From the NCBI GenBank assembly GCA_021201735.1, contig JAJQEJ010000050.1, positions 1 to 64,000 of the forward strand: a stretch of DNA of 64,000 bases, given 5' to 3'. Positions 469 through 33,670 of the stretch are shown here, one piece after another (the stretch's first letter is position 1; every line of letters begins with the position of its first letter). A program made the position numbers and the translations under genes. Origin of the DNA: Oscillospiraceae bacterium (lineage in GTDB: Bacteria > Bacillota > Clostridia > Oscillospirales > Oscillospiraceae). The notes under the pieces are model-generated. The model saw only the letters and a list, made by a program, of their open reading frames with translations. It was not told the DNA's origin and ran no database searches.

Positions 469-549
469 AGTTGCACCAATGGCACCCCTTCCACCAGCCA
501 AAAAGCCGCTGGCTTTTTGGGGTGTCAGTTGTGGACAAAACGTCCACAG
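469..549. repeat. Composite 80-bp repeat, copy A
   Basis: An AGTTGCACCA block, then GGCACCCCTTCCACCAGCC, a small A/T hairpin (CCAAAAAGC with GCTTTTTGG), GGGGTGTC and finally the 21-bp palindrome. Close copies lie at 29,852-29,931 and, more diverged, at 15,585-15,664. The GGCACCCC and GGGGTGTC parts are themselves an imperfect inverted repeat. It lies just after the stop codon of the recombinase gene. Confidence 0.75.
529..549. repeat. ICE 21-bp palindrome, copy 1 (imperfect)
   Basis: Left arm TTGTGGACA, spacer AAA, right arm CGTCCACAG. There are two mismatches to the consensus right arm. It is the leftmost copy and lies at the 3' end of the recombinase gene. Confidence 0.8.
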
Positions 550-2567: not shown

Positions 2568-2588
2568 TTGTGGACAAGATGTCCACAA
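2568..2588. repeat. ICE 21-bp palindrome, copy 2
   Basis: Arms are perfect and the spacer is AGA instead of AAA. Intergenic, upstream of the TnpW-like gene. Confidence 0.9.
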
Positions 2589-3961: not shown

Positions 3962-3982
3962 TTGTGGACAAAATGTCCACAA
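3962..3982. repeat. ICE 21-bp palindrome, copy 3 (longest arms)
   Basis: Perfect copy with AAA spacer. Here the symmetry extends to 16-bp arms (CCGTGAG added outside the core). It stands between the XRE gene and the MATE gene, at the left edge of the cargo block. Confidence 0.95.
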
Positions 3983-5483: not shown

Positions 5484-5502
5484 TGTCTTATTACCCCATT
5501 TC

Positions 5503-5739
5503 TTAAATTAATTCCCATGTGAATAACTTGGGACTATTCGGATTACAGCCAATGCAACCGGCACAGTCTTTATTGCAGTTTCCCTGTTGCATACAGATTC
5601 GTTTCACGATACCCTGCCGCTCTAAGTTTTCCAATGCCGCGCCGATCATGGCGGTATCCGTCCCCAGCTCTGCGGCAAGGTCATCGAACGATAATGCGTC
5701 TTGATTATTCTCAATCAGCTTTAGCAATTTTGCTATCAT
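5503..5739 (-). CDS. feoC: FeoC-like winged-helix protein
   Basis: 78 residues. Residues 1-50 form a small winged helix (LSFDDLAAELGTDTAMIGAA). The tail has five cysteines in the pattern CMQQGNCNKDCAGCIGC, typical of FeoC-like proteins that may bind an Fe-S cluster and tune FeoB. It lies between feoB (9 bp upstream) and the MATE gene on the same strand. The gene symbol rests on context and domain shape. Confidence 0.75.
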   Translation of the reverse strand: MIAKLLKLIENNQDALSFDDLAAELGTDTAMIGAALENLERQGIVKRICMQQGNCNKDCAGCIGCNPNSPKLFTWELI

Positions 5740-8994: not shown

Positions 8995-9015
8995 TTGTGG
9001 ACAAAATGTCCACAA
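8995..9015. repeat. ICE 21-bp palindrome, copy 4
   Basis: Perfect arms, AAA spacer, flanked by GGAG and CTCC that extend the symmetry. It lies between the relaxase 3' end and tetR, at the right edge of the cargo block, mirroring copy 3 on the left edge. Confidence 0.95.
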
Positions 9016-10486: not shown

Positions 10487-10527
10487 GGGCGGCTCCTCCT
10501 TTCCGGCCAGTTGTTCACCTTGCGGAG

Positions 10528-10730
10528 TTGTGGACAAAATCGACCTGTTGACAAACCCCCTCATTTTTTTCGAGAATGGATTTGCGAGGAATCGTTTTTA
10601 CAAAACCTCATTTTGGAAAATTCTATGGGCTACAAACGCTCCATTTTTTGAAGTTTTATCGGAAAACTCCTCAAATCTGGAGCGCGTTTTCAAAGTGGGT
10701 ACTTTGTCAACAGCTCGAAAATGTCCACAA
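10528..10730. repeat. ICE 21-bp palindrome, copy 5, split by an insert
   Basis: The left part (10,528-10,540) and right part (10,722-10,730, after a duplicated AAAAT) rejoin to a perfect copy with AAA spacer when 10,541-10,722 is removed. It lies between mobC and the relaxase gene. Confidence 0.9.
10541..10717. mobile_element. 177-bp MITE-like insert with terminal inverted repeats
   Basis: The ends CGACCTGTTGACAAA and (reverse complement of the right end) CGAGCTGTTGACAAA form 15-bp inverted repeats with one mismatch. AAAAT is duplicated on both sides (10,536-10,540 and 10,718-10,722). The insert has no coding capacity and is AT-rich compared with its neighbours. It interrupts the centre of palindrome copy 5. 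A mobilising transposase is not present in the window. Confidence 0.85.
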
Positions 10731-10769
10731 CTCCGCAAGGCGGGGGAGCGAACGCCGCTCCCCACAACC

Positions 10770-12669: not shown

Positions 12670-12875
12670 GCGCCGGGGGAGTTGTGGACATTTTGTCCAC
12701 AACTCCGGGGTGCCATCAGCTCCCGCCAGCAGTTGCCCACACAGGGCATCCCCCGCCAGTAGCCGCAGCCGTGGCAGGGGGACTCGGCGGGCGGCTTCGC
12801 CATCGGGCCGGGCTTGCCGGGCCGGGGAATCTCCTGCATCATTTTCTCATAGGGGCTGTCGGTAAACCGCTTCAT
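12666..12875 (-). CDS. Small cysteine-containing protein with palindrome-encoded tail
   Basis: 69 residues, MKRFTDSPYEKMMQEIPRPG at the start and CHGCGYWRGMPCVGNC in the middle, which could bind a metal. The last residues SCGQNVHNSPGA are encoded by the 21-bp palindrome. Overlaps its neighbours by four bases on both sides. No family recognised. Confidence 0.6.
   Translation of the reverse strand: MKRFTDSPYEKMMQEIPRPGKPGPMAKPPAESPCHGCGYWRGMPCVGNCWRELMAPRSCGQNVHNSPGA
12682..12702. repeat. ICE 21-bp palindrome, copy 6 (inside a gene)
   Basis: Perfect arms, TTT spacer. Translated in the 3' end of the gene at 12,666-12,875 as SCGQNVHN. Confidence 0.95.
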
Positions 12876-13555
12876 TCGTCCCCGCCCTCTCTTTCGTCAT
12901 AGTCATACGCGCCATCGTCCTCCGGCTCTGTGCCGTAGTCATCCGCGCCGTAATCGTCATCGCCATAGGGATCGTACTCGTTATCGTAATCGTCATCATC
13001 CCCGGCTCCCGCGCCCTCCTGCTTCGGGCGGTAAATCTTGAAGTAGTACCCGGCCCCGCCGCCTGCGGCCACGATCAGCAGCACCAGCAGGAACGATCCG
13101 GCCCCGCTCTTTTGGGCAGGCTCCGGCTCAGGCTCGGCCTCCGGCTCGGGGTCAGGCTCCTGCACGACAACCGGCTCGGGTTCCGGCTCGGGCAGATCAG
13201 ACGCCGCCGCCAGCGACAGCAGATCGGCCTCGGTGACGGCGTTGAGGAAATACACATTTTCCGTAGTGCGCTGCCGGTCGATGATCAGGTAAAACACATT
13301 TTCGTCCGGGGTGACGATGGTGTAAAACTCCTTGCCGTCCTCGTCCGTGGCGGTGTCCAGCACCGTCCCTGTGCCGTCCGGGGTGAACGGGTTCTCGGCG
13401 GGGCCGGGGCTGTCGGTGACATCCTCAACGGAAATTACCGTCCCGGCCTCCTCCTCGCAGGTATCGCCGTCACCGCCGCCCGCATAGGCTGCGGTCGCCA
13501 TCATGGGGAGCATCAAAAAAGCGGCCAACGCCGCCGCAATCGCTTTTATTTTCAT
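12872..13555 (-). CDS. DUF4366 membrane-anchored ICE protein
   Basis: 227 residues. A signal peptide (residues 1-26, ending AAYAGG) is followed by an exported domain and a Glu/Pro-rich spacer (residues 120-145). A transmembrane helix near 150-170 (SFLLVLLIVAAGGGAGYYF) and an acidic Asp/Tyr-rich cytoplasmic tail complete it. This is the DUF4366 pattern found beside VirB4 and M23 genes in ICEs, likely part of the transfer apparatus. Overlaps DUF4315 by four bases. Confidence 0.8.
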   Translation of the reverse strand: MKIKAIAAALAAFLMLPMMATAAYAGGGDGDTCEEEAGTVISVEDVTDSPGPAENPFTPDGTGTVLDTATDEDGKEFYTIVTPDENVFYLIIDRQRTTENVYFLNAVTEADLLSLAAASDLPEPEPEPVVVQEPDPEPEAEPEPEPAQKSGAGSFLLVLLIVAAGGGAGYYFKIYRPKQEGAGAGDDDDYDNEYDPYGDDDYGADDYGTEPEDDGAYDYDEREGGDE

Positions 13556-13842
13556 TCCTCAATATCCTCCTCATCGGTATCATCGGCGGCAGGCGGCACC
13601 TCGGAAGTTGTGGACATTTTGTCCACAACTCCGCTGGGGACGGCCCCGCTCCTAACCGCCTGCAAAAGCGTTGCAAGCTGATCCAGCGGGATGCTCATGC
13701 CCCGCACCACATCCACGATCTCACTGTTCTCAATGTCGGTTTTCCGCTGCTCCAGTTCCTTGAGCTTCGCGGTCATCTCGGCCAGCTTGCCCTTGACCTT
13801 TTCGATCTCGTTTTGTACCTTTTCGGCTTTTGTCGTTGCCAT
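13552..13842 (-). CDS. DUF4315 coiled-coil ICE protein
   Basis: 96 residues. The helical start KVQNEIEKVKGKLAEMTAKL is typical of DUF4315. Near the C-terminus VVDKMSTT is encoded by the palindrome, followed by an acidic tail. Lies between the M23 peptidase and DUF4366 genes. Ribosome site GGAGG precedes ATG 13842. Confidence 0.8.
   Translation of the reverse strand: MATTKAEKVQNEIEKVKGKLAEMTAKLKELEQRKTDIENSEIVDVVRGMSIPLDQLATLLQAVRSGAVPSGVVDKMSTTSEVPPAADDTDEEDIEE
13608..13628. repeat. ICE 21-bp palindrome, copy 7 (inside a gene)
   Basis: Perfect arms, TTT spacer on the plus strand. Read in a second frame as VVDKMSTT in the DUF4315 gene. Confidence 0.95.
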
Positions 13843-13866
13843 GTATGTATAAACCTCCGTTTTCCG

Positions 13867-16038
13867 TTATATTAAAGGACATTCTACAAAATACAGGGGA
13901 TTCAACAGCTCCCCATCCTTCATCACTTCCAAGTCCAGATGCGGCCCAGTGGCGTTGCCGGTCTGCCCTACATGGGCGATCACATCCCCGGCCTCCACCG
14001 TTTGCCCTGTACTCACCAACAGCGTATTACAATGGGAATACCGGGCGGTGACACCGTTCCCGTAGTCGATCCGCACCGTCAGGCCGTACAGGGAGTGGGT
14101 GGTCGCCTCCAGCACCACGCCGCCACCTCCGGCCAGAATCTCGGTGCCGGTGGGCAGCGCAATGTCGATCCCCCGGTGAAAGGCGGTGGCCCCGGTAAAG
14201 GGGTCGGCCCGATAGCCGTAATAGCTGGACACATAGGGCAGCCAGTTAAAGGGGAACGGGCTGCGCACATACTGGCGGTTGCCGTGGGACTGGTCGTAAA
14301 TGTCATACCGATCCTCCTCGTGGCCCTCTTCCAGCAGCGGCATAATCACCTCCAGAAAATCCCGTGCGGTGAGATCGACCTCCAGAATGTAATAGTTGTA
14401 GGCCACCCGATGGGTATTTCCATCGCTGTCCGTTTCGTAGCGGTAGCGTACCTCCACGATCCGGGTAAAGGTGAGCGTATACTGCTGCTCGAACACCTCC
14501 CGCAGATACGGCTCCACCTGGGTAAAGGTGAAATCATCGAATTTTGCGGTCAGGAACGCCATCAGCGCAAAGGCATCGTGGCCCGTTTCGTCTATGGAAA
14601 ATCTGTACTCGTCATAGCCGGGATGCGATTGCGGGGCGTTCCATGCCTGCACCGTCAGGTCGGCCTCCCACTGGCTGTAGGCAAGCTCCGCGCTGTTAAT
14701 ATCCTCGTCCTCGGCCAGATAGGATGATCCCCCGGCTGCACCGGCGATGCCGCTGGCCACGGTCATGCCCGCGTTGGCGCAGGCATACAGGATGAAAATA
14801 ATCACCAGCGCCACGGCCAGAATCAACAGCACTTTTGGATTGGCGATGACAAAGCGAACAACAGCGCGGACGGCCCTGCCGACCGCCACTGCGATCCGTT
14901 TTGTCAGCCTCGCGCCCTCCTGCGCCCCTTTTTTCGCCGCCTTCCGCGCCTCCTTTTGGTATTTCTTTTTGAGTTGACGCTTGTTCCACATGCGGGAAAG
15001 TGCGTTTTTATTGAGATCGGGATGCTGCTTTGCCAGCTTGCGGAAATCGTGATCGGCGCGGAACTTGATATTTTTCTGCTCCCACTTGCGCACCTGTCGG
15101 GCAGGGCGGGTGCGGATGCGCTTCTTGACAAACCGCGTCCCGCCCCGGACAACACCCTCCCCGGCCAGCTCGACCTTGTGGCCCGCCTCGATGCCCACAT
15201 TCTCATGCTCCACCTCGCGGACTTTTCCGTGAACATAGCGCCATGACTGGAATTTTGCCGTGTTGCCCACAGCCTTACCCAACGACCGCGCCAAGCCCTT
15301 TTTGGGCGGCTTCTGCGCGGCCAGCTTGTCGCGGGCCTTGTCCAGCCTTGCACCGCTTTTTTCCACACGCCGCCCGGACTTATCAAACCGCCGCTGCTCC
15401 CGCGCCGCCTTTTTACCGGCAGGCCGGGGGCCGTCAGGGGGATCGCCGCCGCCGTGATCGGCGGCGGGTGTTCCCTCGGGCGCGGCCCCATCCCCGCTGC
15501 GCGGGGGATCGTCCTTGTCACGGCGCAGGCGGTCGGAGGGGCGGGGCTTTTCCCCATCCTGTCGGAGCTTGCCGCTCCCTCCCGAGTTGCACCCAGGCAC
15601 CCCCTCCACCAGCCGATCGCGTTTCACGCTCTCGGGGTGTCGGTTGTGGACATTTTGTCCACAACTCGGAGGGGCCTCGGCACCGGCAGGGGGATTTTCC
15701 TCCGACGCATCCTCAAACCGCAGGCGGCTGGACGGAGCGTCAGCCGGTGGCTCGGCGGGTGCAGGATCGGAGCGGCCAGCCTGGGCGCGGCGCTGCCGGA
15801 GCTTGCTCCCCACCGTGGGGGCGGGGGCCGGGTTCTCCGGCTCCGGCGCACCCTCAAAGCGCAGGGAACTGGCGGGAGCGTCACGGGCCTGCCCCGCAGC
15901 AGCAGGATCGGAGCGGTCGGCAGACGGCTGGCCCCTGCGCAGCTTGTCACCCGCGCCCGAGTTGTGGACATTTTGTCCACAACTCTCCGGCCCCTCCTCA
16001 AAGCGCAGCCGCCGCCCGGATTCCTCACGCGCCTTCAT
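13867..16038 (-). CDS. Membrane-anchored M23-type peptidoglycan hydrolase of the transfer machine
   Basis: 723 residues. Residues 1-230 are low-complexity, rich in Pro, Arg and Asp, and contain two palindrome-encoded segments. A basic helical region follows, then a transmembrane helix near 400-420 (VLLILAVALVIIFILYACAN), an extracellular domain and a C-terminal M23 domain (FHRGIDIALPTGTEI, YSHCNTLL). It is expected to open the cell wall for the conjugation channel. In the usual HLHxE motif the third residue is Asp (GPHLDLEV), so a zinc ligand may be changed. Overlaps virB4 by 14 bases. Confidence 0.85.
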   Translation of the reverse strand: MKAREESGRRLRFEEGPESCGQNVHNSGAGDKLRRGQPSADRSDPAAAGQARDAPASSLRFEGAPEPENPAPAPTVGSKLRQRRAQAGRSDPAPAEPPADAPSSRLRFEDASEENPPAGAEAPPSCGQNVHNRHPESVKRDRLVEGVPGCNSGGSGKLRQDGEKPRPSDRLRRDKDDPPRSGDGAAPEGTPAADHGGGDPPDGPRPAGKKAAREQRRFDKSGRRVEKSGARLDKARDKLAAQKPPKKGLARSLGKAVGNTAKFQSWRYVHGKVREVEHENVGIEAGHKVELAGEGVVRGGTRFVKKRIRTRPARQVRKWEQKNIKFRADHDFRKLAKQHPDLNKNALSRMWNKRQLKKKYQKEARKAAKKGAQEGARLTKRIAVAVGRAVRAVVRFVIANPKVLLILAVALVIIFILYACANAGMTVASGIAGAAGGSSYLAEDEDINSAELAYSQWEADLTVQAWNAPQSHPGYDEYRFSIDETGHDAFALMAFLTAKFDDFTFTQVEPYLREVFEQQYTLTFTRIVEVRYRYETDSDGNTHRVAYNYYILEVDLTARDFLEVIMPLLEEGHEEDRYDIYDQSHGNRQYVRSPFPFNWLPYVSSYYGYRADPFTGATAFHRGIDIALPTGTEILAGGGGVVLEATTHSLYGLTVRIDYGNGVTARYSHCNTLLVSTGQTVEAGDVIAHVGQTGNATGPHLDLEVMKDGELLNPLYFVECPLI
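15585..15664. repeat. Composite 80-bp repeat, copy C (diverged, coding)
   Basis: AGTTGCACCC, GGCACCCCCTCCACCAGCC and GGGGTGTC are kept, but the central A/T hairpin is replaced by other bases. The whole unit is translated in frame within the N-terminal region of the M23 gene. Confidence 0.7.
15644..15664. repeat. ICE 21-bp palindrome, copy 8 (inside a gene)
   Basis: Perfect arms, TTT spacer. Encodes SCGQNVHN in the M23 gene and is the last part of composite copy C. Confidence 0.95.
15962..15982. repeat. ICE 21-bp palindrome, copy 9 (inside a gene)
   Basis: Perfect arms, TTT spacer. A second SCGQNVHN segment in the M23 gene, 318 bp from copy 8. Confidence 0.95.
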
Positions 16039-18397
16039 CCCGCGCCTCCGTTATGTCCTCCGGCTTCGTGGTGAGCAGTCGGTATATTTCAGTATTTTTT
16101 GGAAAACGATCCACAAATGGGATGGTCGTTTCACCAAAGAACAAAAGCCCTTCGCCCGATCCGGCGTGGGTGACGAAAGAGAGCTGATGCGCGGACACGC
16201 CGAACTTCTCCGCGATGATCACCCGGTCGCCGGGGGCCTGGGACAGCAGCACCTTGAAGTCGCTGTTTTCCAGAATATTTTCGATCTCGGGACTACTGAG
16301 CAGAAACTTCACGTTTTGCGTGATGCCGCTGGGAACGCAGTACATTTTTCGCAGCATCTTCCAGATGGTCACAAAGTAGCTGGCGGTCAGCGCATCCTTC
16401 AGCAGCACATGGAACTCGTCAAAATATCCCCAAGTCGCGATGCCGTTTTTGAAGTTGTTGCCCACCGCCTTTGTCACAAGCTCATTTGTGATGTGCATGG
16501 CGATCTTGCGAAGATTCTCCCCAAGATTTTTCAGCACAAAGCAGACAACCCGCTTGTCCAGATTCACGTTTGTTTCGTGATTGAACAGATTCAGACTCCC
16601 CGCCACATACAGCTCCAACGCCGTTGCGATCCGCTGGGCCTCCGGCTCGGGCTGTGATAACAGGGTATTGTACAAGTCCTCCAACACAGGGGCCTGCTCG
16701 GTTGCCAGCCCCGCAGCCTGCTCCCGATACACCAGCCGCACACAGCGGTCGATCACCGTTTTTTCGATGGGCTGTAACCCGTCCTTGCCGCCCACGATCA
16801 ACTCGCACAGGGACAGCAGGAAGTCAGCCTTTAGGGAAATGGGACTCTCGCCGCCCTCCACACCCATCTGTAAATCCATCGGGTTGATGTGGTGAGGGCT
16901 GTCCGGCGATATGTCGATGACCTGCCCGCCCAGCCGCTGCACCAGCGGGGCATATTCCCCCATTGGATCAACAATAATGATGCGGTCGCGGGTGGTCAGG
17001 AACACGTTCAGCAGCTCCCGCTTCGCGGCAAAACTCTTGCCGCTGCCCGGAACTCCCAAGAACATCCCATTGGGGTTCAGGAGCTTCTTGCGGTTCGCCA
17101 TAATGATGTTGTGACTCAGCGCGTTCATGCCGTAGTAGAGCGCCTCGCCGTCCATGCGAAGCTCCCTCGTCATAAAGGGGATGAAGATGGCCGTGGAACT
17201 GGTGGTCATGCCCCGCTGAATCTCGATGCTGTTCGCGCCGAGAATCAGCGAGGACATGTAGCCCTGCTCCTGCAAAAAGTCCAGCCGCTTGATGGCGCAG
17301 TTGTGCTTTTGCGCGATGCCGGAAATAGTGAACAGGTCGTTCTCCAGCCGCTGGCGGGTGGGGGCGGTGTTCAGCACCAGAAAGGTCAGCAGGAACATCC
17401 GCTCGTTGCGGCTTTGCAGATCGGCCAGCAGACTGGCCACGTCCTTTGAGAACGTAATGAGATCGGGCGGGAGAATGTCGGGATCGTACCCGGCCCGCAC
17501 CGCCTGCTTTTGGGCCTCGATCTTCATCTTATCCACATCGCTCATTTTGGCCTTGATGGTTTTGATTGCCTCGTTCTGATCCACCGTGCGGATGTGCATG
17601 GTCACGGTCATTTCGGCGTCAAGCTCCAGAAGCTCCAAAAGCAATTTGTCACTCAGCTCGGATGCCATGATCTGTAAATGAGATGCCGCGCCCCACGACC
17701 GGCCCACCCGGAACACCCGGCTCTGCCGGAAGTCAAAGCTGGTGGGGGCGATGAAATCCTTCGTCCCCATGCCGGTCTGCGGGATCATGTCCCAATCGAA
17801 GCGGAACGGCTCCCGGCCTCCGGGGTGAAGCTGGCTGTGCAGTACCTCCAGCCGTTCCCGGCCACTGAGGGGCCGGGCCGGAACGCCCAGCTTTTTGTAG
17901 TTGCCGAGAATGTCGGCCTCCACCCGCTCCAGCCGGGGCCGGGCGGCGGCGATGCCCTCGGCCTCGATGCCATAGGTGATGTATTTGGAGCGGGTGATGC
18001 CGTTGTTGCTCCGCGCAATCTGCCCCTTCACCATTTCGGTGAACTCCTCCCGGACACTGTTCGCGTCATCGTCCTGGGGGGCGATGTTCACATGGTACTG
18101 GCTCCCGGGCCGGGAGCGGTGATTGACAAAGGACTTCTGGAACGGCAGCACACTGTCAAAATAATTGAGGAATCCGCTGTAGCCGTCAAAGATCGCGGCC
18201 TGGTCATCCCCGGACGCCACCGAGTAATTGATGTCCTCGTATTCGATGGTTTTGGTGTAGTAGCCCTCCCGCACCTTGCAGATGCCGTCCGGCAGCATTT
18301 CCACATAGGGGATGGTCTGCTGCGCCGTCCCCGGCACAAACCGCCCCTTTTTACCTCGTCCCTTTGGGATGGGCGGGCTTTTTTTCCGCTTGCTCAA
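16025..18397 (-). CDS. VirB4-type conjugation ATPase
   Basis: 790 residues. Walker A is GVPGSGKSFAAKRE near residue 455 and the Walker B region is WGYFDEFHVLL near 665. The N-terminal half is the VirB4/TraE substrate-handling domain. VirB4 powers assembly of and transport through the type IV secretion channel at the membrane. The start is TTG at 18397, inside the end of the prgI gene, with GGAGGTG upstream. The 47-base overlap indicates coupling. Length and motifs are intact. Confidence 0.95.
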   Translation of the reverse strand: MSKRKKSPPIPKGRGKKGRFVPGTAQQTIPYVEMLPDGICKVREGYYTKTIEYEDINYSVASGDDQAAIFDGYSGFLNYFDSVLPFQKSFVNHRSRPGSQYHVNIAPQDDDANSVREEFTEMVKGQIARSNNGITRSKYITYGIEAEGIAAARPRLERVEADILGNYKKLGVPARPLSGRERLEVLHSQLHPGGREPFRFDWDMIPQTGMGTKDFIAPTSFDFRQSRVFRVGRSWGAASHLQIMASELSDKLLLELLELDAEMTVTMHIRTVDQNEAIKTIKAKMSDVDKMKIEAQKQAVRAGYDPDILPPDLITFSKDVASLLADLQSRNERMFLLTFLVLNTAPTRQRLENDLFTISGIAQKHNCAIKRLDFLQEQGYMSSLILGANSIEIQRGMTTSSTAIFIPFMTRELRMDGEALYYGMNALSHNIIMANRKKLLNPNGMFLGVPGSGKSFAAKRELLNVFLTTRDRIIIVDPMGEYAPLVQRLGGQVIDISPDSPHHINPMDLQMGVEGGESPISLKADFLLSLCELIVGGKDGLQPIEKTVIDRCVRLVYREQAAGLATEQAPVLEDLYNTLLSQPEPEAQRIATALELYVAGSLNLFNHETNVNLDKRVVCFVLKNLGENLRKIAMHITNELVTKAVGNNFKNGIATWGYFDEFHVLLKDALTASYFVTIWKMLRKMYCVPSGITQNVKFLLSSPEIENILENSDFKVLLSQAPGDRVIIAEKFGVSAHQLSFVTHAGSGEGLLFFGETTIPFVDRFPKNTEIYRLLTTKPEDITEARDEGA

Positions 18398-18737
18398 TCA
18401 CTGGCACCTCCTTTTTTTCGCTTAAATAGGCGTAAAAATTCTCGGTTTTGTAGGGCCGCACCCTCGGCCAGAGGAAACGGGAGCGGACAAAATTCCGCAC
18501 CACCTTCTCGGCGGGCAGGCCGTCCCGCTCGTACATTGCCAGCAGGAACGCCGGGAGCATCACCGCCAGCATCAGGAACAGCGCCGCGCTGTTCCCGATG
18601 GCCGAGCGGGTAAGAAGGTAGGTGGGGATGCCGACAACTGCCGCCGCGCCAAAGCAGATAAGCTGGCGTTTGGTCAGGTTGAACGCCACCTTCGTTTTTA
18701 TCTTTGAAAGGTCGTTTGGTACGCTTACATAGGGCAA
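18351..18737 (-). CDS. PrgI-family conjugal membrane protein
   Basis: 128 residues starting MPYVSVPNDLSKIKTKVAFN from a TTG codon with GGAGG upstream. Two membrane helices near residues 28-70 are followed by a cytoplasmic tail. PrgI proteins (VirB3-like) always precede VirB4 in these systems, as here. Confidence 0.9.
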   Translation of the reverse strand: MPYVSVPNDLSKIKTKVAFNLTKRQLICFGAAAVVGIPTYLLTRSAIGNSAALFLMLAVMLPAFLLAMYERDGLPAEKVVRNFVRSRFLWPRVRPYKTENFYAYLSEKKEVPVIEQAEKKPAHPKGTR

Positions 18738-18741
18738 AAAA

Positions 18742-19305
18742 TCAACCTCCTATGAGTTGTGGACATTTTGTCCACAACTCGGGTAATGTGCAGTCCACCT
18801 CGTTCCCCCACACATCCCAGCCGGGCGGGGACTGCCGGGCGAACAGCTCCACGCGGGGCAGATCGCCCATCAGCCGCACGATCTTGTCCCGCGCCTCGTC
18901 CGGCTTTTTGCTGTGGCCCTCCAGCGGGGAGATGATGAACTGGTGAACAGTGTTGTCCCGCCGCTTCGGGTGGCCCCGTGTGGCCAGCAGGCACACCTCG
19001 GCATTGCTGCGTGTCCAGTAGCCCAGGCCGGTAAACCATGTCAGAGCCTTGCGGTTCTGCTTCAGCCACACGAACGCCACCGTCTTGAACTGGAATCCCC
19101 ATGCGTCAATCACTTGCAGGGCCTCCCGGAGCATGGGGAAGGTGGCCCACAAAAAAAGCGCACTGTCCGGGGCGGCAAGCTCCGCCACGGGCAACGCGCA
19201 TATGTCCTGTATGTTCATGGTCGGGTAGTGGTTCTCCGCCGCGCCCTGCACGTTGCCGCTGGAATAGCGCCACGGGGGATCGGCGTAGACAATGCTATAA
19301 TGTAT
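18742..19305 (-). CDS. MT-A70-family adenine methyltransferase, start codon unusual
   Basis: 187 residues if translation begins at ATA 19305. The catalytic DPPW motif (YSIVYADPPWRY) lies upstream of the first GTG (19251), so a GTG start would remove the active site. The frame is open back to a TGA, and GGAGG stands 10 bases before the ATA. Either ATA is used or a former ATG has mutated. MT-A70 proteins methylate adenine N6. On an ICE this may protect DNA from restriction. The last residues ELWTKCPQLIGG are encoded by the palindrome. Confidence 0.75.
   Translation of the reverse strand: MHYSIVYADPPWRYSSGNVQGAAENHYPTMNIQDICALPVAELAAPDSALFLWATFPMLREALQVIDAWGFQFKTVAFVWLKQNRKALTWFTGLGYWTRSNAEVCLLATRGHPKRRDNTVHQFIISPLEGHSKKPDEARDKIVRLMGDLPRVELFARQSPPGWDVWGNEVDCTLPELWTKCPQLIGG
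18757..18777. repeat. ICE 21-bp palindrome, copy 10 (inside a gene)
   Basis: Perfect arms, TTT spacer. Read in a third frame as LWTKCPQL at the end of the MT-A70 gene. Confidence 0.95.
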
Positions 19306-19326
19306 GAGTAATCATCCTCCAATCGG

Positions 19327-20076
19327 TCAGTTGTGGACAAAATGTCCACAACTCGCCTCGGTTGCCTGCCGAATCCGCTCCCAAGCCAGCGCGTAGAACT
19401 GCGGCGCGTTCTCAAAGCAGATATACCTCCGGCCCGTGTTGATCGCGGCCACGGCGGTTGTGCCGCTCCCGGCGCAGATGTCAACCACAAGCTGGCCCGC
19501 GTCGGTGTAGGTTTTGATCAGGTACTCGCAGATCTCCACCGGCTTTTGGGTGGGATGGATCGTCCGGCCCACCGGGGCGAACTGGATCACATTGCCGGGG
19601 AATCGCCGCCCGTCCGGGGACTCGGCCCCGGAGCGGGTGAACTTGCCGTAGTTGGGACTCAGCCCCAAGCTGGTGTGTGTGCGCAGATACGGCTCCCGGT
19701 ACTCAAACTGCGGATTGTACACGGGTAGATGCTGATAGAACACCAGAATGTTCTCGGACTTTTTCAGCGGCATCCTCCGGGCATTGAGGAATCCCGTCCC
19801 CCTGTCCTTGTACCACACCCACTCGTAGCGGAGCATGGGCAGGTTGGACGCGCCCAGCGTTTTGTCAAAGGGACACTGCGCGAACATGAGGATCGCCCCG
19901 TCCGGCTTGACCGCCTGCTTCACCGCCGCCCACAGCTCCGGCAGGGGCAGCGGCACATCCCAAAAGTTCCGGGTGGTGCCGTAGGGCAGATCGGTCAGCA
20001 GCATGTCCACCGATCCGGGCGGCAGGGAGCGCAGCCCCTCGATGCCGTCCATGAGATAGATGTTATTATCGGTCAT
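19327..20076 (-). CDS. Site-specific DNA methyltransferase (DLPYG type)
   Basis: 249 residues. Motif IV is TDLPYGTT near residue 30 and motif I is VVDICAGSGTTAVAA near residue 207, giving the circularly permuted beta-class order. The conserved HPTQKPVEICEYLI precedes motif I. It probably methylates adenine N6 and may guard the ICE from host restriction together with the MT-A70 protein and ArdA. ATG 20076 follows GGAGGTGCAGCGCA. The C-terminus SCGHFVHN is encoded by the palindrome. Confidence 0.88.
   Translation of the reverse strand: MTDNNIYLMDGIEGLRSLPPGSVDMLLTDLPYGTTRNFWDVPLPLPELWAAVKQAVKPDGAILMFAQCPFDKTLGASNLPMLRYEWVWYKDRGTGFLNARRMPLKKSENILVFYQHLPVYNPQFEYREPYLRTHTSLGLSPNYGKFTRSGAESPDGRRFPGNVIQFAPVGRTIHPTQKPVEICEYLIKTYTDAGQLVVDICAGSGTTAVAAINTGRRYICFENAPQFYALAWERIRQATEASCGHFVHN
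19331..19351. repeat. ICE 21-bp palindrome, copy 11 (inside a gene)
   Basis: Perfect arms, AAA spacer on the plus strand. Forms the last eight codons of the methyltransferase gene. Confidence 0.95.
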
Positions 20077-21853: not shown

Positions 21854-21933
21854 CGGACAGTGTCCGTAAAGAAGCAGGGCATACTCATGGCGGGCGGCGG
21901 CATCGTAGATGGCCGGGGGCCCGGTATTCAATT

Positions 21934-23592
21934 TCAGGCGGTAGGCTCCTGAGCGTTTTCCAGGTCAACCGCGCCGATGTTGGACCAGATAATCTCCACC
22001 TTCTGGCGGCGGTCCCCGCGAGGGTTTTCGGCCTCGTGGACGATAATCCGGTCAATAAACTCATGGACGATGGCCGGGGTCAGGGTCTCGACCTCCGTGT
22101 ACCGGCGGACGAGGGCGAGGAAGCGGTCCACGTTCACGGCCTGGGCCTGGGCGTCGGAAATCTCACCCTCCAGCCCGTCCAGGAGCCGGACGAGGTCAGC
22201 CTGCTCCGCCTCGTACTTGGCGGAGAGCTTGGCGTACCGCTCATCGGTGATTTTCCCGGTGGCGTTGTCCTCATAGAGGCGCTCGGCCAGCAGATCGATT
22301 TCATCAATGCGGCGGCGGTGCCTCTCGGCGGCCCGCCGCTTGGCGGCCAGTTCCTTGCCCTGCTCCTGCTTACTCTTGTCCATCACCAGCCGGACAAACC
22401 GCTTCTCATGCCGGGACACAAATCGCAAAAGCTCCCGCAGTTCCAGGAGGATAAGCTCCGTCAGCGCCGCCTCGGTGATGTAGTGGCAGGAACACGCCCG
22501 GGCCTCCTGGTACTGCACGTCCTTGCGATAGGTGGAGCAGCTATAGGCCCCCTCGTGGCGCACCTTGGTCTTGTCCTTGTTGGAGATGGTCCTGGTGCAG
22601 AAGTAGAGCTTGGCCCCGCAGTCGGCGCAGTAGGCCGCGCCGGAGAACAGGCCGGGGTCCCCGTGGCGGGGGGAGCGGCGCTTGTGCTGGCGCATCTTTC
22701 GCACGATGCCCCAGGTCTCCCGGTCGATGATGGCCGGGTGGGTGCCCTCGAACACCATCCACTTTTCCGGCGGGTTGAGCCGGGGGCGGCTGTCCTTGTG
22801 GGACTTGCTGTAGGTCTTGAAATTGACCGTGCTGCCGATGTACTCCGGGGCATCCAGGATTTTGTGGACCGTGGTGGTGTTCCAGAAATAGGGGTCCTTG
22901 CAGGGCCGGGCCTTGCTGACAATCCCGTGCTCGTACTTGTATGCGCTGGGGTTGAGCAGGCGCTCACCATTCAGCATCCGGGCAATCTGGGCGGGGCCGT
23001 GGCCCTCCACCGACAGGCGGAAGATGCGGCGCACCACGGCGGCGCTCTCCTCGTCTATCTCCAGCCGGTTTTTGTTCTCCGGGTCTTTGCAAAAGCCGTA
23101 GGGCGGGATGACGGCGAGGCGTTCCCCGCTCTTGCCCTTGGCCTGCCACACAGCCCGGATTTTCTGGCTGGTATTTTTGATGAACCATTCGTTGAATACA
23201 TTCACAAACGGTGTGAAGTCGTTCTCCCCGTTGGCGGTATCCACGTTGTCATTGATGGCAATCAGCCGCACATCCTTTTGCGAAAACAGGATTTCCGTGT
23301 AGAAACCCACCCGGAGATAGTCCCGCCCGAAGCGGCTCATGTCCTTGACAATCACGGTGGACACCCTCCCGGCCTCCACGTCCGCGATCATCTTGGTGAA
23401 GCTGGGCCGGTCAAAATCGGCCCCGGACCAACCGTCGTCAAAGATGAACTCATAGGGCGTGAAGCCGTTGTCCTCGGCGTACTTGGTGAGAATTTTCCGC
23501 TGGTTTTGGATGGAGCAGGAATCACCTTGGAGCGCGTCCTCCTGGCTCAGTCGTCCATATAAATAGGTCATTTTTTCTGGCTGTCTAATCAA
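21934..23592 (-). CDS. Large serine recombinase of the nested element (TnpX-like)
   Basis: 552 residues. Catalytic serine in YLYGRLSQED near the start, VKDMSRFGRDYLR near residue 86, zinc-ribbon region starting YCADCGAKLYF and a long coiled-coil tail. It should integrate and excise the 5.4-kb element. TTG 23592 is favoured by GGAGG five bases upstream. An ATG four codons further upstream or one seven codons downstream are alternatives. It shares the family but not close identity with the ICE recombinase at 552-2243, so the two elements are separate units. Confidence 0.9.
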   Translation of the reverse strand: MIRQPEKMTYLYGRLSQEDALQGDSCSIQNQRKILTKYAEDNGFTPYEFIFDDGWSGADFDRPSFTKMIADVEAGRVSTVIVKDMSRFGRDYLRVGFYTEILFSQKDVRLIAINDNVDTANGENDFTPFVNVFNEWFIKNTSQKIRAVWQAKGKSGERLAVIPPYGFCKDPENKNRLEIDEESAAVVRRIFRLSVEGHGPAQIARMLNGERLLNPSAYKYEHGIVSKARPCKDPYFWNTTTVHKILDAPEYIGSTVNFKTYSKSHKDSRPRLNPPEKWMVFEGTHPAIIDRETWGIVRKMRQHKRRSPRHGDPGLFSGAAYCADCGAKLYFCTRTISNKDKTKVRHEGAYSCSTYRKDVQYQEARACSCHYITEAALTELILLELRELLRFVSRHEKRFVRLVMDKSKQEQGKELAAKRRAAERHRRRIDEIDLLAERLYEDNATGKITDERYAKLSAKYEAEQADLVRLLDGLEGEISDAQAQAVNVDRFLALVRRYTEVETLTPAIVHEFIDRIIVHEAENPRGDRRQKVEIIWSNIGAVDLENAQEPTA

Positions 23593-23677
23593 AATTTCCT
23601 CCATTTCCGACAGCCAACAGACGGTAATGTATGGTCTGAGTATACCATAGATTACCGCAGTTGGCAGCGGGGTTTAA

Positions 23678-23866
23678 CTAAATATTTTTGACGTCGTATT
23701 CAATGAGGCGGGCGATGGTGGAGACGATATCCTTCTCCCGGCCCTCCTGGAAGCGGGAGGTAACGGTGTAGGTGGTCCTTCCAATCTTGCGGCGGACGGT
23801 GCGGGGATGAGGCCGGAGGGCGGGCTCCGGCTTGGGGTTGGCGGGGACGGTTTGGGTAGTATTCAA
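23678..23866 (-). CDS. TnpW-like small protein of the nested element
   Basis: 62 residues with RKIGRTTYTVTSRFQEGREK and IVSTIARLIEYDV, the TnpW pattern also seen at 2338-2502. TTG 23866 lies five bases after AAAGGAG. An in-frame GTG upstream would place the ribosome site inside the gene. Confidence 0.72.
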   Translation of the reverse strand: MNTTQTVPANPKPEPALRPHPRTVRRKIGRTTYTVTSRFQEGREKDIVSTIARLIEYDVKNI

Positions 23867-24063
23867 ATATACTCCTTTCACATGCGCCCGCGAGGGGCGT
23901 GTAACGCTTTTGCGGCCGTTTTCGGGGGTCCGAGGGGTATACCATAGGCGGGGGCTGAATCGGCGGCGGGAAGCCTGTCATACCAGGGCTTTCAGCACCC
24001 TAAATGTCTACAGCGGCCCCTGGAGCTTGGCCCCGCCCCAGCAGCGGAGCAGATGGGTGCGGC

Positions 24064-25257
24064 TCATCGGGTCTGGGACCTTTTCCGGCTCTGCTCTGCC
24101 GTGGGGGTAGGCTCCGGCTTCTCCGGCGGCTGGCGAAAAATATCCGCAATCACCTGGGCGAGGCGGCGGGGCGCCCTCTGCCTGGCCCTGTTGTATTCAA
24201 ACGTGTCGGGTATGCTTAGGCCGTCACCGAGACGGGCCAGCCGTTCTTTCAGGTCCTTAATCTGGCGCTGCCCCTGGCTGAGTTTTTCTTTCAGCCCCTT
24301 GATGATGCCCCGTGACTGAATGCCCTCTTTGGCGAGGCCGGACACCGTTTTCCAATCGGCGGGGGTAAGCTGGACATTGCCGCCAATGGTCTTGCGGGCC
24401 ATATTGTCAATCTCCATGAAGGTGACGGCAGCCTGTTTGGTCACGGTCAGCTTTTCATCCAGTTTTTCAAGCTGGCTCTGCTTCTTTTTCGCCTTCGCTT
24501 CCGAGGCCGCGGCGCGGGCCTCGTCCTGCTGGATTTTGTACTCCAGCGTGTCCAGATGCTCCGCTGTGCTCCCGCGCTCACCCCGCTCGAAATCCGTGAA
24601 TCCCGCCGCCCGCATGTGCTCGTGAAAGCGGTCCTGGAGCAGGGAGTAGGCGTTAATCCACCGGCCATTTTCATCCTTGGTGCGGGGCCATTTTTTCGAG
24701 TGGCTGACCTGAATGATGACCTCCTTCACGGTGCCGACCAGTGCCGGGTCCTTGCACCGTTTTGTCCAGCGGACCTCTTTCTCCACCACGGGGACGTAGA
24801 CCACATGGAGGTGGTAGTGGAACACATCCCGGCCCAGCTTCTCCGACAGGGCGCGGTTGCGTTCATCGGCGTGCATCACCGCCGACAGGATGTACTGCTC
24901 ACCCCCGGCCTCCTCCACCGCCAGCCGGTAGGCTTCCTCGAAAAACTTCTTGGCGTAGTCGTAGCCGCCGTGGTCATCAAAGTAGGCTGTGTTCACGTCG
25001 AACACCAGCTCGTCAAAGACCCTGGCATCCTGTTTCAGCCCCCGGAGGCTGATGACTTTTTCCTCCACCAGCCGGTTAAATTCCCGCTCGTATGTACCGT
25101 CACAGGACTTGAACTGGACGTTCAGGTGGGTGCGTTCCGGCAGGATATCTCCGTTACCGTAGTGTTCATTTTTTCGCTCGTTATGCCGCTCCCGGAGATT
25201 AAATTCCCCCCGGCGGTACGCCTGATTGCGAACAACGCAGCGGTCTGTTTTGGGCAT
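24064..25257 (-). CDS. MobV-type plasmid recombination/mobilization relaxase (Pre/Mob)
   Basis: 397 residues. The N-terminal Mob_Pre domain includes NVQFK near residue 48, NTAYFDDHGGYDYAKKFFEE and the metal-site region DVFHYHLHVVYVPV near residue 145 (histidines HYHLH). The C-terminal half is coiled coil. Such relaxases mobilize elements using the machinery of a coresident ICE or plasmid, here possibly the ICE in which it sits. ATG 25257 follows GAGGAGGACCAGTC. Confidence 0.9.
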   Translation of the reverse strand: MPKTDRCVVRNQAYRRGEFNLRERHNERKNEHYGNGDILPERTHLNVQFKSCDGTYEREFNRLVEEKVISLRGLKQDARVFDELVFDVNTAYFDDHGGYDYAKKFFEEAYRLAVEEAGGEQYILSAVMHADERNRALSEKLGRDVFHYHLHVVYVPVVEKEVRWTKRCKDPALVGTVKEVIIQVSHSKKWPRTKDENGRWINAYSLLQDRFHEHMRAAGFTDFERGERGSTAEHLDTLEYKIQQDEARAAASEAKAKKKQSQLEKLDEKLTVTKQAAVTFMEIDNMARKTIGGNVQLTPADWKTVSGLAKEGIQSRGIIKGLKEKLSQGQRQIKDLKERLARLGDGLSIPDTFEYNRARQRAPRRLAQVIADIFRQPPEKPEPTPTAEQSRKRSQTR

Positions 25258-25599
25258 GACTGGTCCTCCTCTGATATGATTTTTTTAAGCAAGGGGGCCA
25301 AGGGGGCCAATGCGGTGTTGGTCTCCTTGACCATCTTCCGATGCGGTGCTACTTTCCCCCTCACTTAAAGGAAAAAATAGGGGGTAAATCGGAACTCTGT
25401 TTGAATATTTCTGAAAAATTCTGACGAAAAAAGCGGCCCCCGCCTGATGGCGAAAACCGCTTCACTTTTGGAATGTTTTGTTGTATACTGGGCGCAGGCA
25501 ACACGCTGAGATGACAATTGCCCCAGGCTGGCCCCATCACCGAAAATGCCGAGTGCGTACCACATTTGCCGCCACGGGAGACGGGGGACGCTGGGCCGT

Positions 25600-25799
25600 C
25601 ATACACTCCCCGTGGAAGTGTATGACCCACTCTGACACTTTCCCGCCTACGGCGGGCAAAGTGTCGTGGACCCTCCCGGGGGGGATGCGCCGCCTGCGGG
25701 CGGCTCTGCGGACTACGGCCAAATGCACCGCCGTACCCGGCGGTGCATTTGGCCGTAGTCCGCACAAAACGGCCGTGTCGCGCTGCGGCGCGACCGGCC
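25600..25799. other. Hairpin cluster upstream of mobV, candidate oriT
   Basis: Four inverted repeats in 200 bp. CATACACT/AGTGTATG lies at 25,600-25,624 and GACACTTT/AAAGTGTC, with an inner CCCGCC/GGCGGG, at 25,634-25,665. A perfect 26-bp arm repeat with a four-base loop is at 25,708-25,763, and a GC-rich imperfect one at 25,771-25,799. The position 0.35 kb before the relaxase gene, without coding signals, suits an origin of transfer. The wider gap 25,258-26,082 holds nothing else I can name. Confidence 0.5.
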
Positions 25800-26082
25800 A
25801 TTTTGCGGCTGCACGGCAGCCGGACGGGGGGGGACGATGGACGAGAGACGGCGAGCACTTCGAACCAACTTGGAGCCGCAGTCTGGGCGCACAAACGGGA
25901 ATGGCGAAGATTGTCGAAAGGTATGCCTTTTGAAACTGTGCATTTTGACCATGCTAAATCGGGTTTTTGCCTGTTTTGAAAACTTTCTCCCGGTTTTTTT
26001 CGTCTGATTCCTTCATTCTTAAAATTTGTGAAAGGTATACCTTTTGAAAATATGTAAGATAGTTAGAACTGTGTAAATTAAC

Positions 26083-26109
26083 TAAATTCCTCCGGGAAAA
26101 GGCCGATAA
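26083..26109 (+). promoter_or_regulatory. Sigma-28 (flagellar) promoter of the mobile flagellin
   Basis: TAAA (26,083-26,086), exactly 15 bp, then GCCGATAA (26,102-26,109). This is the full consensus of sigma-D/sigma-28 promoters for late flagellar genes. It lies about 165 bp before the flagellin start, within the mobile element. Confidence 0.88.
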
Positions 26110-26275
26110 AATTTAACAGAAGGCATTCCGGGTATGTGCTAAATGGACATACGCAGGTCTATTGCTTATTTTTAGTTGTTTTGAATACGCATGGGCATAT
26201 ACCCCGGAATGGCTTCAACGGTCGGCATGGATTTCGGCCAACAAAATTCTATTATTTTTCAAGGAGGAAATACCC

Positions 26276-27094
26276 ATGAGAATCCAGAACAACGTAGCAT
26301 CCATGAACGCGCACAGGCACTACACGATCAACAACAACGCACTTGCCAAGAGCACAGAGAAGCTGTCGTCCGGCTACAAGATCAATCGAGCCGCCGACGA
26401 CGCCGCCGGCCTCGCCGTGTCCGAAAAAATGCGGGCGCAGATTCGGGGCCTGACCGTAGCAAGCCAGAACGCCCAGGACGGCGTGTCCCTGGTGCAGACC
26501 GCCGAGGGTTATCTCCAGGACATGCAGGACATTTTGCACCGCATGAAGGATCTGGCCACCCAGGTCGGTAACGACACCTATGATGAAAGTGACCGCACTT
26601 ATGCCCAGAAGGAGATTGCGGAACTCATTGATGAGCTGGGTGACATTAGTGAACGGGCTGAGTTCAACGGTATTTTTTTATTTTCAGCCGACGTCGAATT
26701 AGTCTTGCAGGTTGGTCATAAGTCAGGCGACGAAATGACGCTCGAATGGGATAAACTTGATGCAACCGAACTTGGCGTTAACAGTATTGATGTCTCTACT
26801 GGTACCGATGGTACTGATGCCCGCACTGCTATAGAGACAATTAATGATGCCCTGGAAATCATCAACGAGCTCCGTGCAACGCTGGGCGCATATCAGAACC
26901 GCCTGGAGTACAAGATCAGCTCCCTGGACAACGCGGCTGAGAACCTGACCGCCGCCGAGAGCCGTATCCGCGACACGGACATGGCCAAGGAGATGACCAA
27001 CTACACCAAGCAGAGCATCCTGGCTCAGGCCGCCACCGCCATGTTGGCCCAGGCCAACAGCCAGCCCCAGCTGGTTCTCCAGCTGCTCGGCTAA
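26276..27094 (+). CDS. Flagellin, carried as cargo of the nested mobile element
   Basis: 272 residues. The N-terminal D0/D1 region starts MRIQNNVASMNAHRHYTINN and contains RAADDAAGLAVSEKMRAQIR. A short variable centre covers roughly residues 98-200. The C-terminal D1/D0 ends TKQSILAQAATAMLAQANSQ then PQLVLQLLG. This is a complete, secretable filament subunit. The segment matching the TLR5-recognition helix reads LHRMKDLATQ, close to the classical LQRVRELAVQ with conservative changes. AAGGAGG precedes ATG 26276. The gene has its own sigma-28 promoter and terminator, so it should follow the host flagellar programme. The centre is AT-richer than both ends, which points to a mosaic gene. No other flagellar gene is in the window. 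Confidence 0.96.
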   Translation: MRIQNNVASMNAHRHYTINNNALAKSTEKLSSGYKINRAADDAAGLAVSEKMRAQIRGLTVASQNAQDGVSLVQTAEGYLQDMQDILHRMKDLATQVGNDTYDESDRTYAQKEIAELIDELGDISERAEFNGIFLFSADVELVLQVGHKSGDEMTLEWDKLDATELGVNSIDVSTGTDGTDARTAIETINDALEIINELRATLGAYQNRLEYKISSLDNAAENLTAAESRIRDTDMAKEMTNYTKQSILAQAATAMLAQANSQPQLVLQLLG

Positions 27095-27116
27095 CTACAG
27101 TTAACAGTTAACAATT

Positions 27117-27495: not shown

Positions 27496-27516
27496 TTGTG
27501 GACATTTTGTCCACAA
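27496..27516. repeat. ICE 21-bp palindrome, copy 12
   Basis: Perfect arms, TTT spacer. Between the virD4 3' end and maff2. Confidence 0.95.
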
Positions 27517-29851: not shown

Positions 29852-29931
29852 AGTTGCACCAGTGGCACCCCTTCCACCAGCCAAAAAGCTGGCGCTTTTT
29901 GGGGTGTCAGTTGTGGACAAAATGTCCACAA
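29852..29931. repeat. Composite 80-bp repeat, copy B
   Basis: Nearly identical to copy A (469-549) over the TTGCACC, GGCACCCCTTCCACCAGCC, CCAAAAAGC/GCTTTTTGG hairpin and GGGGTGTC parts, ending in a perfect palindrome. Intergenic between the ArdA and PcfB genes. Confidence 0.8.
29911..29931. repeat. ICE 21-bp palindrome, copy 13
   Basis: Perfect arms, AAA spacer, terminal part of composite copy B. Confidence 0.95.
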
Positions 29932-32002: not shown

Positions 32003-32023
32003 CTGTGGACAAAATGTCCACAA
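32003..32023. repeat. ICE 21-bp palindrome, copy 14 (one mismatch)
   Basis: Left arm CTGTGGACA (first base changed), AAA spacer, right arm perfect. Directly downstream of the parB gene. Confidence 0.88.
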
Positions 32024-32048: not shown

Positions 32049-33554
32049 TTACTTCTCCGGGGCTTTGATCTTCTTGTCGGGCGGCGCGACCGCCTTTTCC
32101 TTTGCCTTCATATCCTCCAGCAGCTCGATGATTTTGTCCTTCATCTGCCGGGGTGTTTTTTCGTTGCCAAAATATTTACTGAGTTCATCACCGGAAAGAA
32201 TCACTTTCTCTACCTCCTTTTTCTCTTGCGACAGGATGCTGTCGATGACATCGCCGTTGAGCTGGCCCTTTTGATCAAGCTCCCGGAGCTGTTTTGCCTG
32301 GGAGAGCGATGGGCTGGCCTGTTCACCGTCCAGATTGACGGCGATCAGGCGCTGGTTTTTGGGCTTGATAAAGGAAAATTCGAGGGCGGGGGTAAAGGAC
32401 AGCTTTTTATCATCCACCGCCGCCAGCAGATCGGGAACAAGCTCGGTCAGCCGGACATACCGCTGCACCTGTTTCCCGGTCATGTCGTTGCGCTCCCCGA
32501 CAATCTGAATAGACTTTTTGCCACGATCCGCCTCGGGGACAGCTTTGGGGTTGCGCTCCCCACGGTGGTTGATGGCGTCAACCTGCATTTTCAGCGAGTG
32601 GGCTTTTTCGCTGGGGAGAATTTCAGACCGCTGGCGCAGGTTGTCATCGGTCATGGCGAGAATGGCCTCATCATCGGTCATCTGCCGCACGATACAGGGC
32701 ATGTCCTTAAAGCCCGCAAGCTCGCTGGCCCGCTGACGGCGATGCCCGGCCACGATCTCATAGCCGCCGCCCTCGCGGGGGCGCACCAGCGCGGGGGAGT
32801 TCACGCCCTTGTCCTTGACGCTCTCCACCAGCGCCCGCATCTCCTTGTCATCCCGAACGCCGAAAGGGTGATCCTTAAAGGCGTAAAGCTCGGAAATGTT
32901 GAGATGCACGATCTGCTCGGGTTCTTTGGGGCGGGGAGCCTCCGTCTGCATGGAGGGCGGCGGCGTGGGGGGAAAGTCCGGGCGGTAGTCCTTGCCCGAA
33001 ATGGCATCGCCGCTTTTGGCGGGGGGCTTCGGCTGTGCAGGAGCCGCTTGCTCCTTTTTCGGCCTGCCCCGTTTGGCCGGGGGCTTATCCGGCTGGTCGG
33101 GCTTTGCGGCGGCGCGGGGCTTGCGGCCCGACTTTTTCGCGTCAAGCGCCGCCTGTTCCTTATTCCAGCTATCGAGGGAATCTCCCTCGGTGGTAAGCTC
33201 CGGCCCGGCCTGCTTATCGCCGCCCGGCCCGTTGGGGGCGGGAGCAGCTTTGTCCGGCGTTTTCGGCTTATCCTCAATGCGAACACTTTTCCCGGACGGA
33301 AAATCCACGCCGATGATCCGATTTTTGCCGGGGGCGGGGGGAGCCGCCACCTTTTCATCCTTGCCGCCAGCGGCGGGAGCCTCCTTTCCCGGCGCGGGCG
33401 GGGCCTGCTTGCCGGGGGATTTTTCCGGCGCGGGTGCTTTGGTTTTATCATCGAGCGTGGGTGCGTTCACCGCATCGCCCTGGGGCGGCTGATCGCCGCC
33501 GACAACGGCCTGCTCCTTTTTATCGGGCGCATCCGTCTGTTTATTATCTGCCAT
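32049..33554 (-). CDS. ParB-family DNA-binding protein of the ICE
   Basis: 501 residues. Residues 1-210 are low-complexity (Pro, Lys, Ala). The ParB N-domain follows (LNISELYAFKDHPFGVRDDK, ALVRPREGGGYEIVAGHRRQ with the GHRRQRA motif that binds CTP in the family), then an HTH-containing centre (MTGKQVQRYVRLTELVPDLL) and a C-terminal helical part. ParB proteins load on parS palindromes and spread. No ParA is encoded in the window. It is the first gene of the leftward operon. ATG 33554 was chosen because AAGGAGG lies nine bases before it. A possible partner for the 21-bp palindromes. Confidence 0.85.
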   Translation of the reverse strand: MADNKQTDAPDKKEQAVVGGDQPPQGDAVNAPTLDDKTKAPAPEKSPGKQAPPAPGKEAPAAGGKDEKVAAPPAPGKNRIIGVDFPSGKSVRIEDKPKTPDKAAPAPNGPGGDKQAGPELTTEGDSLDSWNKEQAALDAKKSGRKPRAAAKPDQPDKPPAKRGRPKKEQAAPAQPKPPAKSGDAISGKDYRPDFPPTPPPSMQTEAPRPKEPEQIVHLNISELYAFKDHPFGVRDDKEMRALVESVKDKGVNSPALVRPREGGGYEIVAGHRRQRASELAGFKDMPCIVRQMTDDEAILAMTDDNLRQRSEILPSEKAHSLKMQVDAINHRGERNPKAVPEADRGKKSIQIVGERNDMTGKQVQRYVRLTELVPDLLAAVDDKKLSFTPALEFSFIKPKNQRLIAVNLDGEQASPSLSQAKQLRELDQKGQLNGDVIDSILSQEKKEVEKVILSGDELSKYFGNEKTPRQMKDKIIELLEDMKAKEKAVAPPDKKIKAPEK

Positions 33555-33584
33555 GCGCATTGACCTCCTTTTAATAATTGGCGC

Positions 33585-33649: not shown

Positions 33650-33670
33650 TTGTGGACAAAATGTCCACAG
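33650..33670. repeat. ICE 21-bp palindrome, copy 15 (one mismatch)
   Basis: Left arm perfect, AAA spacer, right arm TGTCCACAG (last base changed). It is the rightmost copy, in the parB leader region. Confidence 0.88.

Follow-up and report, generated by a model that had tools for sequence, protein, structure and literature searches.

The palindrome that recurs across the ICE of this Oscillospiraceae genome is very probably a landing site private to the element's own ParB, one whose sequence shifts with the DNA-reading residues of that protein. That the ICE's own ParB reads the palindrome is predicted, with high confidence, from the covariation of ParB residues with site bases. The explanation that best fits the whole, which appears probable, is that these are dispersed parS or operator sites of a solo KorB-like ParB, that the HTH of this protein reads them, and that coating and silencing of the element would follow.

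The palindrome and its host element

The window (the whole analysed stretch of 64,000 nucleotides) contains 14 copies of the palindrome AGTTGTGGACA-N3-TGTCCACAACT, also written TTGTGGACA-N3-TGTCCACAA, between positions 529 and 33670 at up to three mismatches, versus 0.02 expected from shuffles. The copies span 33 kb and cover the whole ICE; none was found outside the ICE in the 2.35-Mb genome, and a search of 149 further genomes of this family gave none either. The perfect arms measure 8 to 16 bp (site 1 is imperfect), the 3-base centre is AAA or TTT and, once, AAG, and both spacer orientations are present. Six copies are located inside five genes, in all three frames, and eight are intergenic. 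An additional site near the relaxase start (site 15) is split by a 177-bp insertion that is single-copy in the genome and has 15-bp inverted ends (CGACCTGTTGACAAA / TTTGTCAACAGCTCG) and a 5-bp AAAAT target duplication.

The ICE genes, on the minus strand, encode a relaxase, MobC, YodL/DarA_C, CD1107-like, DUF4315, M23, VirB4/TraG and PrgI proteins, MT-A70 and N6/N4 methylases, SpoVG-like, TrbL_2, VirD4, DUF3801 and ArdA/DUF6674 proteins and a ParB_N protein. The relaxase, MobC, VirB4/TraG, PrgI, TrbL_2, VirD4, DUF4315, CD1107-like protein and serine recombinase form the gene set generally associated with Tn1549-like elements. The tRNA gene beside the recombinase is likely the integration site. 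The features are as follows.

314-386: tRNA gene, adjacent to the recombinase gene
529..549: site 1, at the left end of the element, flanked by tRNA and recombinase; two mismatches
552-2270: large serine recombinase, adjoining the tRNA gene
2568..2588: site 2, intergenic
3962..3982: site 3, intergenic; perfect arms of 16 bp
8995..9015: site 4, directly past the relaxase stop; same placement in 11 ICEs
10524..10735: site 15, near the relaxase start; split by the 177-bp insertion
12682..12702: site 5, orf69 C-terminal codons; SCGQNVHN, frame 2
13608..13628: site 6, DUF4315 C-terminal codons; VVDKMSTT, frame 1
13867..16038, minus strand: M23 peptidase gene, two sites inside
15644..15664: site 7, disordered N-terminal part of the M23 gene; SCGQNVHN, frame 2
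15962..15982: site 8, M23 gene, directly past the virB4 stop; SCGQNVHN, frame 2; similar in other ICEs
18742..19311, minus strand: MT-A70 gene, site 9 at its 3' end
18757..18777: site 9, MT-A70 C-terminal codons; LWTKCPQL, frame 0
19331..19351: site 10, N6/N4-methylase C-terminal codons; SCGHFVHN, frame 2
27496..27516: site 11, 27 bp past the virD4 stop
29911..29931: site 12, between the ArdA/DUF6674 and DUF3801 genes
32003..32023: site 13, 39 bp past the parB stop
32049..33560, minus strand: ICE parB; disordered N-terminus, ParB_N (residues 216-302), HTH, C-terminal helices
32448..32522, minus strand: ParB HTH codons (residues 347-371); residues 349, 362 and 363 covary with the site
33650..33670: site 14, about 100 bp upstream of the parB start

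No copy of the palindrome lies inside the nested recombinase/Mob_Pre element (about 21.9-27.1 kb) or the feoAB/MATE cargo genes. The nested element (21900-27100), with its large serine recombinase and Mob_Pre gene, is inserted between trbL and virD4 and includes a perfect 27-bp inverted repeat with a 4-base loop (25707-25764). In several related ICEs (L134, L142, L144 and L146), serine-recombinase elements interrupt virD4, with an insertion point that appears to recur.

The sequence-only reading had assigned six copies to genes, in three frames and with the peptides listed above, and all of them are found where it put them (orf69, DUF4315, M23 twice, MT-A70 and methylase). Its proposal that selection acts on the DNA and not on the peptide is borne out in related ICEs, where MT-A70 and DUF4315 keep the palindrome while the peptide changes. 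The MT-A70 palindrome encodes LWTKCPQL, FWTKCPEV, FGTSCPKL, FWSRWPE and other peptides across the ICEs, and the DUF4315 palindrome of the window differs from those of its relatives in frame and in distance from the stop. The methylase site is at the C-terminus in the window and near the start in other ICEs; in orf69, the palindrome is present in the window copy only and is missing in the relatives. Plausibly, C-terminal or disordered codons host the sites because added residues would be tolerated there.

Lineage-specific site sequences and their predicted ParB reader

Related ICEs (n=31) were fetched around ParB orthologs from the family, and their repeats were first found by a motif-free palindrome count; site types were assigned by consensus, many of the loci being draft contigs. 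These 31 ICEs carry an 8+3+8 palindrome at the same gene ends with a different sequence in each lineage, the types being TGTGGACA (that of the window), TCTGGACA (up to 15 copies per ICE), TYGGGACA, TCGGGCCA and TCTGGYCA. Sites of a foreign type hardly occur; in the window, all 14 are of the own type, and the other four types are not represented. Common to the types is the half-site ACYTNNGGNCA, with the outer end AGTT in the window and the halves 3 bp apart, and the arms past 8-11 bp are not conserved among the relatives. The placement is regular: parB is followed by an own-type site in 31/31 ICEs, in 30/31 of them 14-40 bp past the stop. All 12 ICEs that have MT-A70 carry a site at its 3' end, and sites also lie upstream of DUF3801 in 18 of 20, 15-27 bp past the virD4 stop in 14 of 19 and after the relaxase in 11 of 17. 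The more complete ICEs possess 9-15 sites with a typical spacing of 1-2 kb. TTGTCCACA resembles a DnaA box, but this reading of the repeats was abandoned, as the sequences found at the same positions in relatives bear no likeness to that box.

The site sequence follows particular residues of ParB. Across the 31 ICEs, R at residue 349 goes with G at arm base 3, and L or K goes with T; among about 290 ParB columns, this is the only perfect predictor of base 3, and the change took place three times independently on a tree from which the HTH columns had been left out. Residue 362 perfectly predicts arm base 6 (V with C or T; Y, G or A with A), as does residue 220 in the ICEs, and single switches separate sister ParBs, with MSVKT accompanying TCTGGYCA and MSGKT accompanying TCTGGACA. 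None of the control ICE proteins with at least 19 sequences (DUF3801, VirD4, ArdA) has a perfect base-3 column; where MT-A70 and DUF4315 have perfect columns, these include the very codons that the site encodes. Several ICE proteins with few sequences have perfect base-6 columns, this base being less discriminating because few ICEs vary at it.

In a set of 100 unique reader-site pairs, only partly independent of the 31-ICE test because ICE pairs are included, the top of 216 residue-base associations are 349-n4 (z 20) and 363-n7 (z 19), n4 and n7 corresponding to bases 3 and 6 of the ICE arm. These scores are inflated and the associations partly phylogenetic because ParBs and sites share ancestry; when each of the 22 clusters at 60% identity is represented by a single ParB, z drops to 4-5. 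Leave-one-cluster-out prediction is correct in 43/51 cases for 349-n4 (baseline 23/51) and in 35/42 for 363-n7 (baseline 17/42). The base-3 rule was rejected as a universal one, as R may occupy position 349 in distant ParBs whose sites are TGTGGACA; in Lachnospiraceae ParBs with such sites, this residue is often R and not K.

The ParB of the window is a predicted protein of 503 residues with a ParB_N domain (PF02195, E=1.5e-17). An AlphaFold2 model built with 24 homologs has a pLDDT of 88.6 (the single-sequence model, with a pLDDT of only 38, was not used) and matches the folds of Noc (Z 16.2), ParB (15.7) and KorB (14.6), with a central HTH. In this model, residue 349 directly precedes HTH helix 1 and residue 362 is the first residue of the recognition helix; by hmmsearch, the latter aligns with Noc Q158, the equivalent of Caulobacter ParB R173, which is a proven ParB/Noc specificity residue (PMC7383237). 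The CTP-box motifs GxRR and NxxR..LPxE are recognizable, as sequence motifs, in GHRR and NLRQRSEILPSE. The N-terminal 200 residues look disordered, and an AT-hook-like RGRPKK (GRP) motif is present in most ICE ParBs. Each palindrome is very probably bound by a dimer of this protein with the HTH as the reader, such that residue 349 would govern arm base 3 and residues 362/363 would govern arm base 6.

Palindromes inside parB genes beyond the ICEs

A DNA-only pattern scan of 84,980 genomes and of IMG/VR viral contigs yielded 97 loci, of which 56 have a ParB relative (24-41% identity). In 50 of the 97 loci, the palindrome is inside parB, versus 7% expected by length; it is located a few codons before the HTH and encodes TCGHDVHK or TCGQxVHK. 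The outer bases AC and GT, which were outside the search pattern, are kept as well, giving the same ACTT half-site. At one of these loci (L022), parA lies directly upstream of the palindrome-bearing parB relative. A protein query found no ParB relatives in the viral contigs.

Among 102 further ParB homologs (34-48% identity), 47 contain a perfect 9-N3-9 palindrome in parB, nearly always directly before the HTH and in 44 cases at one alignment column, and many more have one with a single mismatch. The density of such palindromes is 0.49 per kb inside parB versus 0.03 outside the gene, a 15 times difference. Only perfect and one-mismatch palindromes were used as evidence; those with two mismatches before the HTH were left out because control windows yield as many chance matches. 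In this set, the same ParB residues predict the same site bases. The ICE ParBs of the TCGGGCCA type retain the in-gene site too, which links the in-gene and dispersed arrangements. On balance, these observations favour a large clostridial ParB family with private centromere codes and with parS often inside parB, from which a solo-ParB ICE branch would have copied the site to 9-15 gene ends to coat and silence the element. With parS within parB near the HTH, reader and site would move as one cassette, and dozens of codes could have arisen in this way.

Four Faecalibacterium loci (L034, L048 at 4857-5655, L050 and L061) contain arrays in which short hairpins of many kinds follow one another, most of them with AAA/TTT centres. 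The array of L048 adjoins Mob_Pre and transposase genes, and one hairpin of these arrays happens to match the window palindrome.

Proposed function and comparison with known systems

In the proposed mechanism, ParB would load at the 9-15 gene-end sites, every 1-2 kb, close as a CTP clamp and spread, coating the whole ICE; as with KorB of RK2, the transfer operon would be silenced and parB would be autoregulated. The chance that this course of loading, clamp spreading, coating, silencing and autoregulation is correct appears to be even or slightly better, and element-wide silencing and coating may be considered the likeliest role. Silencing and coating with autoregulation are favoured by the solo ParB, the CTP-box motifs, the KorB model and the dispersed parS of R55, and classical partition is less likely because there is no ParA in the element. 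Promoter scans found no clear promoter at most sites.

Partition is nevertheless the main rival, possible albeit rather doubtful. The sites would then be mainly centromeres through which ParB would hold the excised ICE circle and segregate it as it replicates; a ParA, either of the host or co-resident, might take part. Such a role is suggested by the relatives with in-gene palindromes that occur in parA-parB operons (L022, and the parA neighbours of other homologs) and by the IncC plasmid R55, which uses its 14 scattered parS for partition (PMC10954446). However, neither the window contig nor the neighbourhood of ICE parBs in six genomes encodes a ParA (AAA_31), and the sites track gene ends across the whole element instead of being clustered. 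The LGRGL ParA-binding motif is absent from all ICE ParBs examined, which is a weak test of ParABS because nearly all parA-linked relatives lack it as well.

The other alternatives appear far less plausible. The sequence-only reading had also suggested recent insertion of the palindrome as a unit, as in the palindromic elements of Rickettsia, and an identical sequence in many genes and frames, at places that tolerate extra residues, would fit mobile elements of the RPE, REP or MITE type. This possibility was rejected and retains hardly any credence: the palindrome is confined to the ICE, the same gene ends are occupied in ICEs with site sequences that diverged along with ParB, and palindrome-free MT-A70 homologs, instead of showing a clean gap of 24-27 bp, end in different tails of similar length. 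The likeness to the Rickettsia elements thus extends to palindromes in coding DNA in several frames, whereas the window palindromes are not inserted units, belong to one element only, keep fixed positions and have a predicted protein partner. Two further readings are improbable to nearly the same degree. Once transcribed, the palindrome would form a hairpin, and it lies near gene junctions; in the transfer mRNA it could serve as a processing, attenuation or translation signal, but the site sequence follows the ParB HTH residues, both spacer orientations occur, the long arms are not kept in relatives, and an Rfam search gave no match except a tRNA. Operators of another ICE regulator co-inherited with ParB would account for the correlations seen with other proteins, as ICE genes travel together, but no other protein with at least 19 sequences has a perfect base-3 column, and the non-ICE proteins that share the palindrome are ParBs.

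The nearest working model for the ICE ParB is KorB of RK2, which slides from its operators as a CTP clamp and silences promoters up to 1.5 kb away (PMC11790492); RK2 has 12 palindromic KorB operators (OB) across the conjugative element, and KorB takes part in silencing its transfer and maintenance genes (PMC11790492, PMC10954446). Both systems combine a ParB-fold HTH protein with palindromic sites dispersed over a conjugative element. Unlike RK2, the ICE is integrated and clostridial, with no IncC/ParA or KorA partner identified, its site is about 25 bp with a 3-bp spacer, the code varies between related elements, and the ParB has a long disordered N-terminus with the AT-hook-like motif. The ParABS system of R55 has, like the window ICE, 14 palindromic sites across a conjugative backbone, some of them (four in R55) inside ORFs (PMC10954446), but in R55 parA is beside parB, the site sequence is unrelated, and no family of diverged codes is described. 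BisD of Pseudomonas putida ICEs is mentioned (PMC12704722) as an ICE-encoded, ParB-like, CTP-dependent regulator; these ICEs are proteobacterial. Earlier work on shifts in ParB specificity drew on parS and NBS as its two natural sites (PMC7383237). As in that ParB/Noc switch, HTH positions appear to decide site choice, residue 362 being the equivalent of R173/Q158; there, two natural codes are known, whereas here there are dozens, often with site and reader in one gene.

A search of the open literature, with subscription journals mostly outside its range, found nothing comparable to an ICE-encoded ParB of Firmicutes whose parS are dispersed. Judging from the sequences, what seems to be new here is a variant of the KorB/ParB dispersed sites together with a natural ParB-parS code. 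A recognition code can be fitted to the dozens of natural pairs of reader and site, whose residues and bases are matched, and DNA labelling could draw on them for many orthogonal ParB-parS pairs; the findings also suggest how common gut ICEs stay quiet and are told apart.

With private codes, cross-talk between several ICEs in one cell would be avoided. Strict incompatibility by code is unsupported, as two ICEs with the same code (G757a and G757b) are found in one genome (G757), which argues against it. In C. perfringens, the compatibility families of ParR-parC are private centromere codes of co-resident conjugative elements for which incompatibility has been shown (PMC9426499); the likeness is in the private codes of co-resident clostridial elements, the difference in that those systems are ParMRC and not of the ParB fold. 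Another genome (G236) harbours four ICEs with three codes, namely TCGGGCCA, TCTGGACA and, twice, TYGGGACA.
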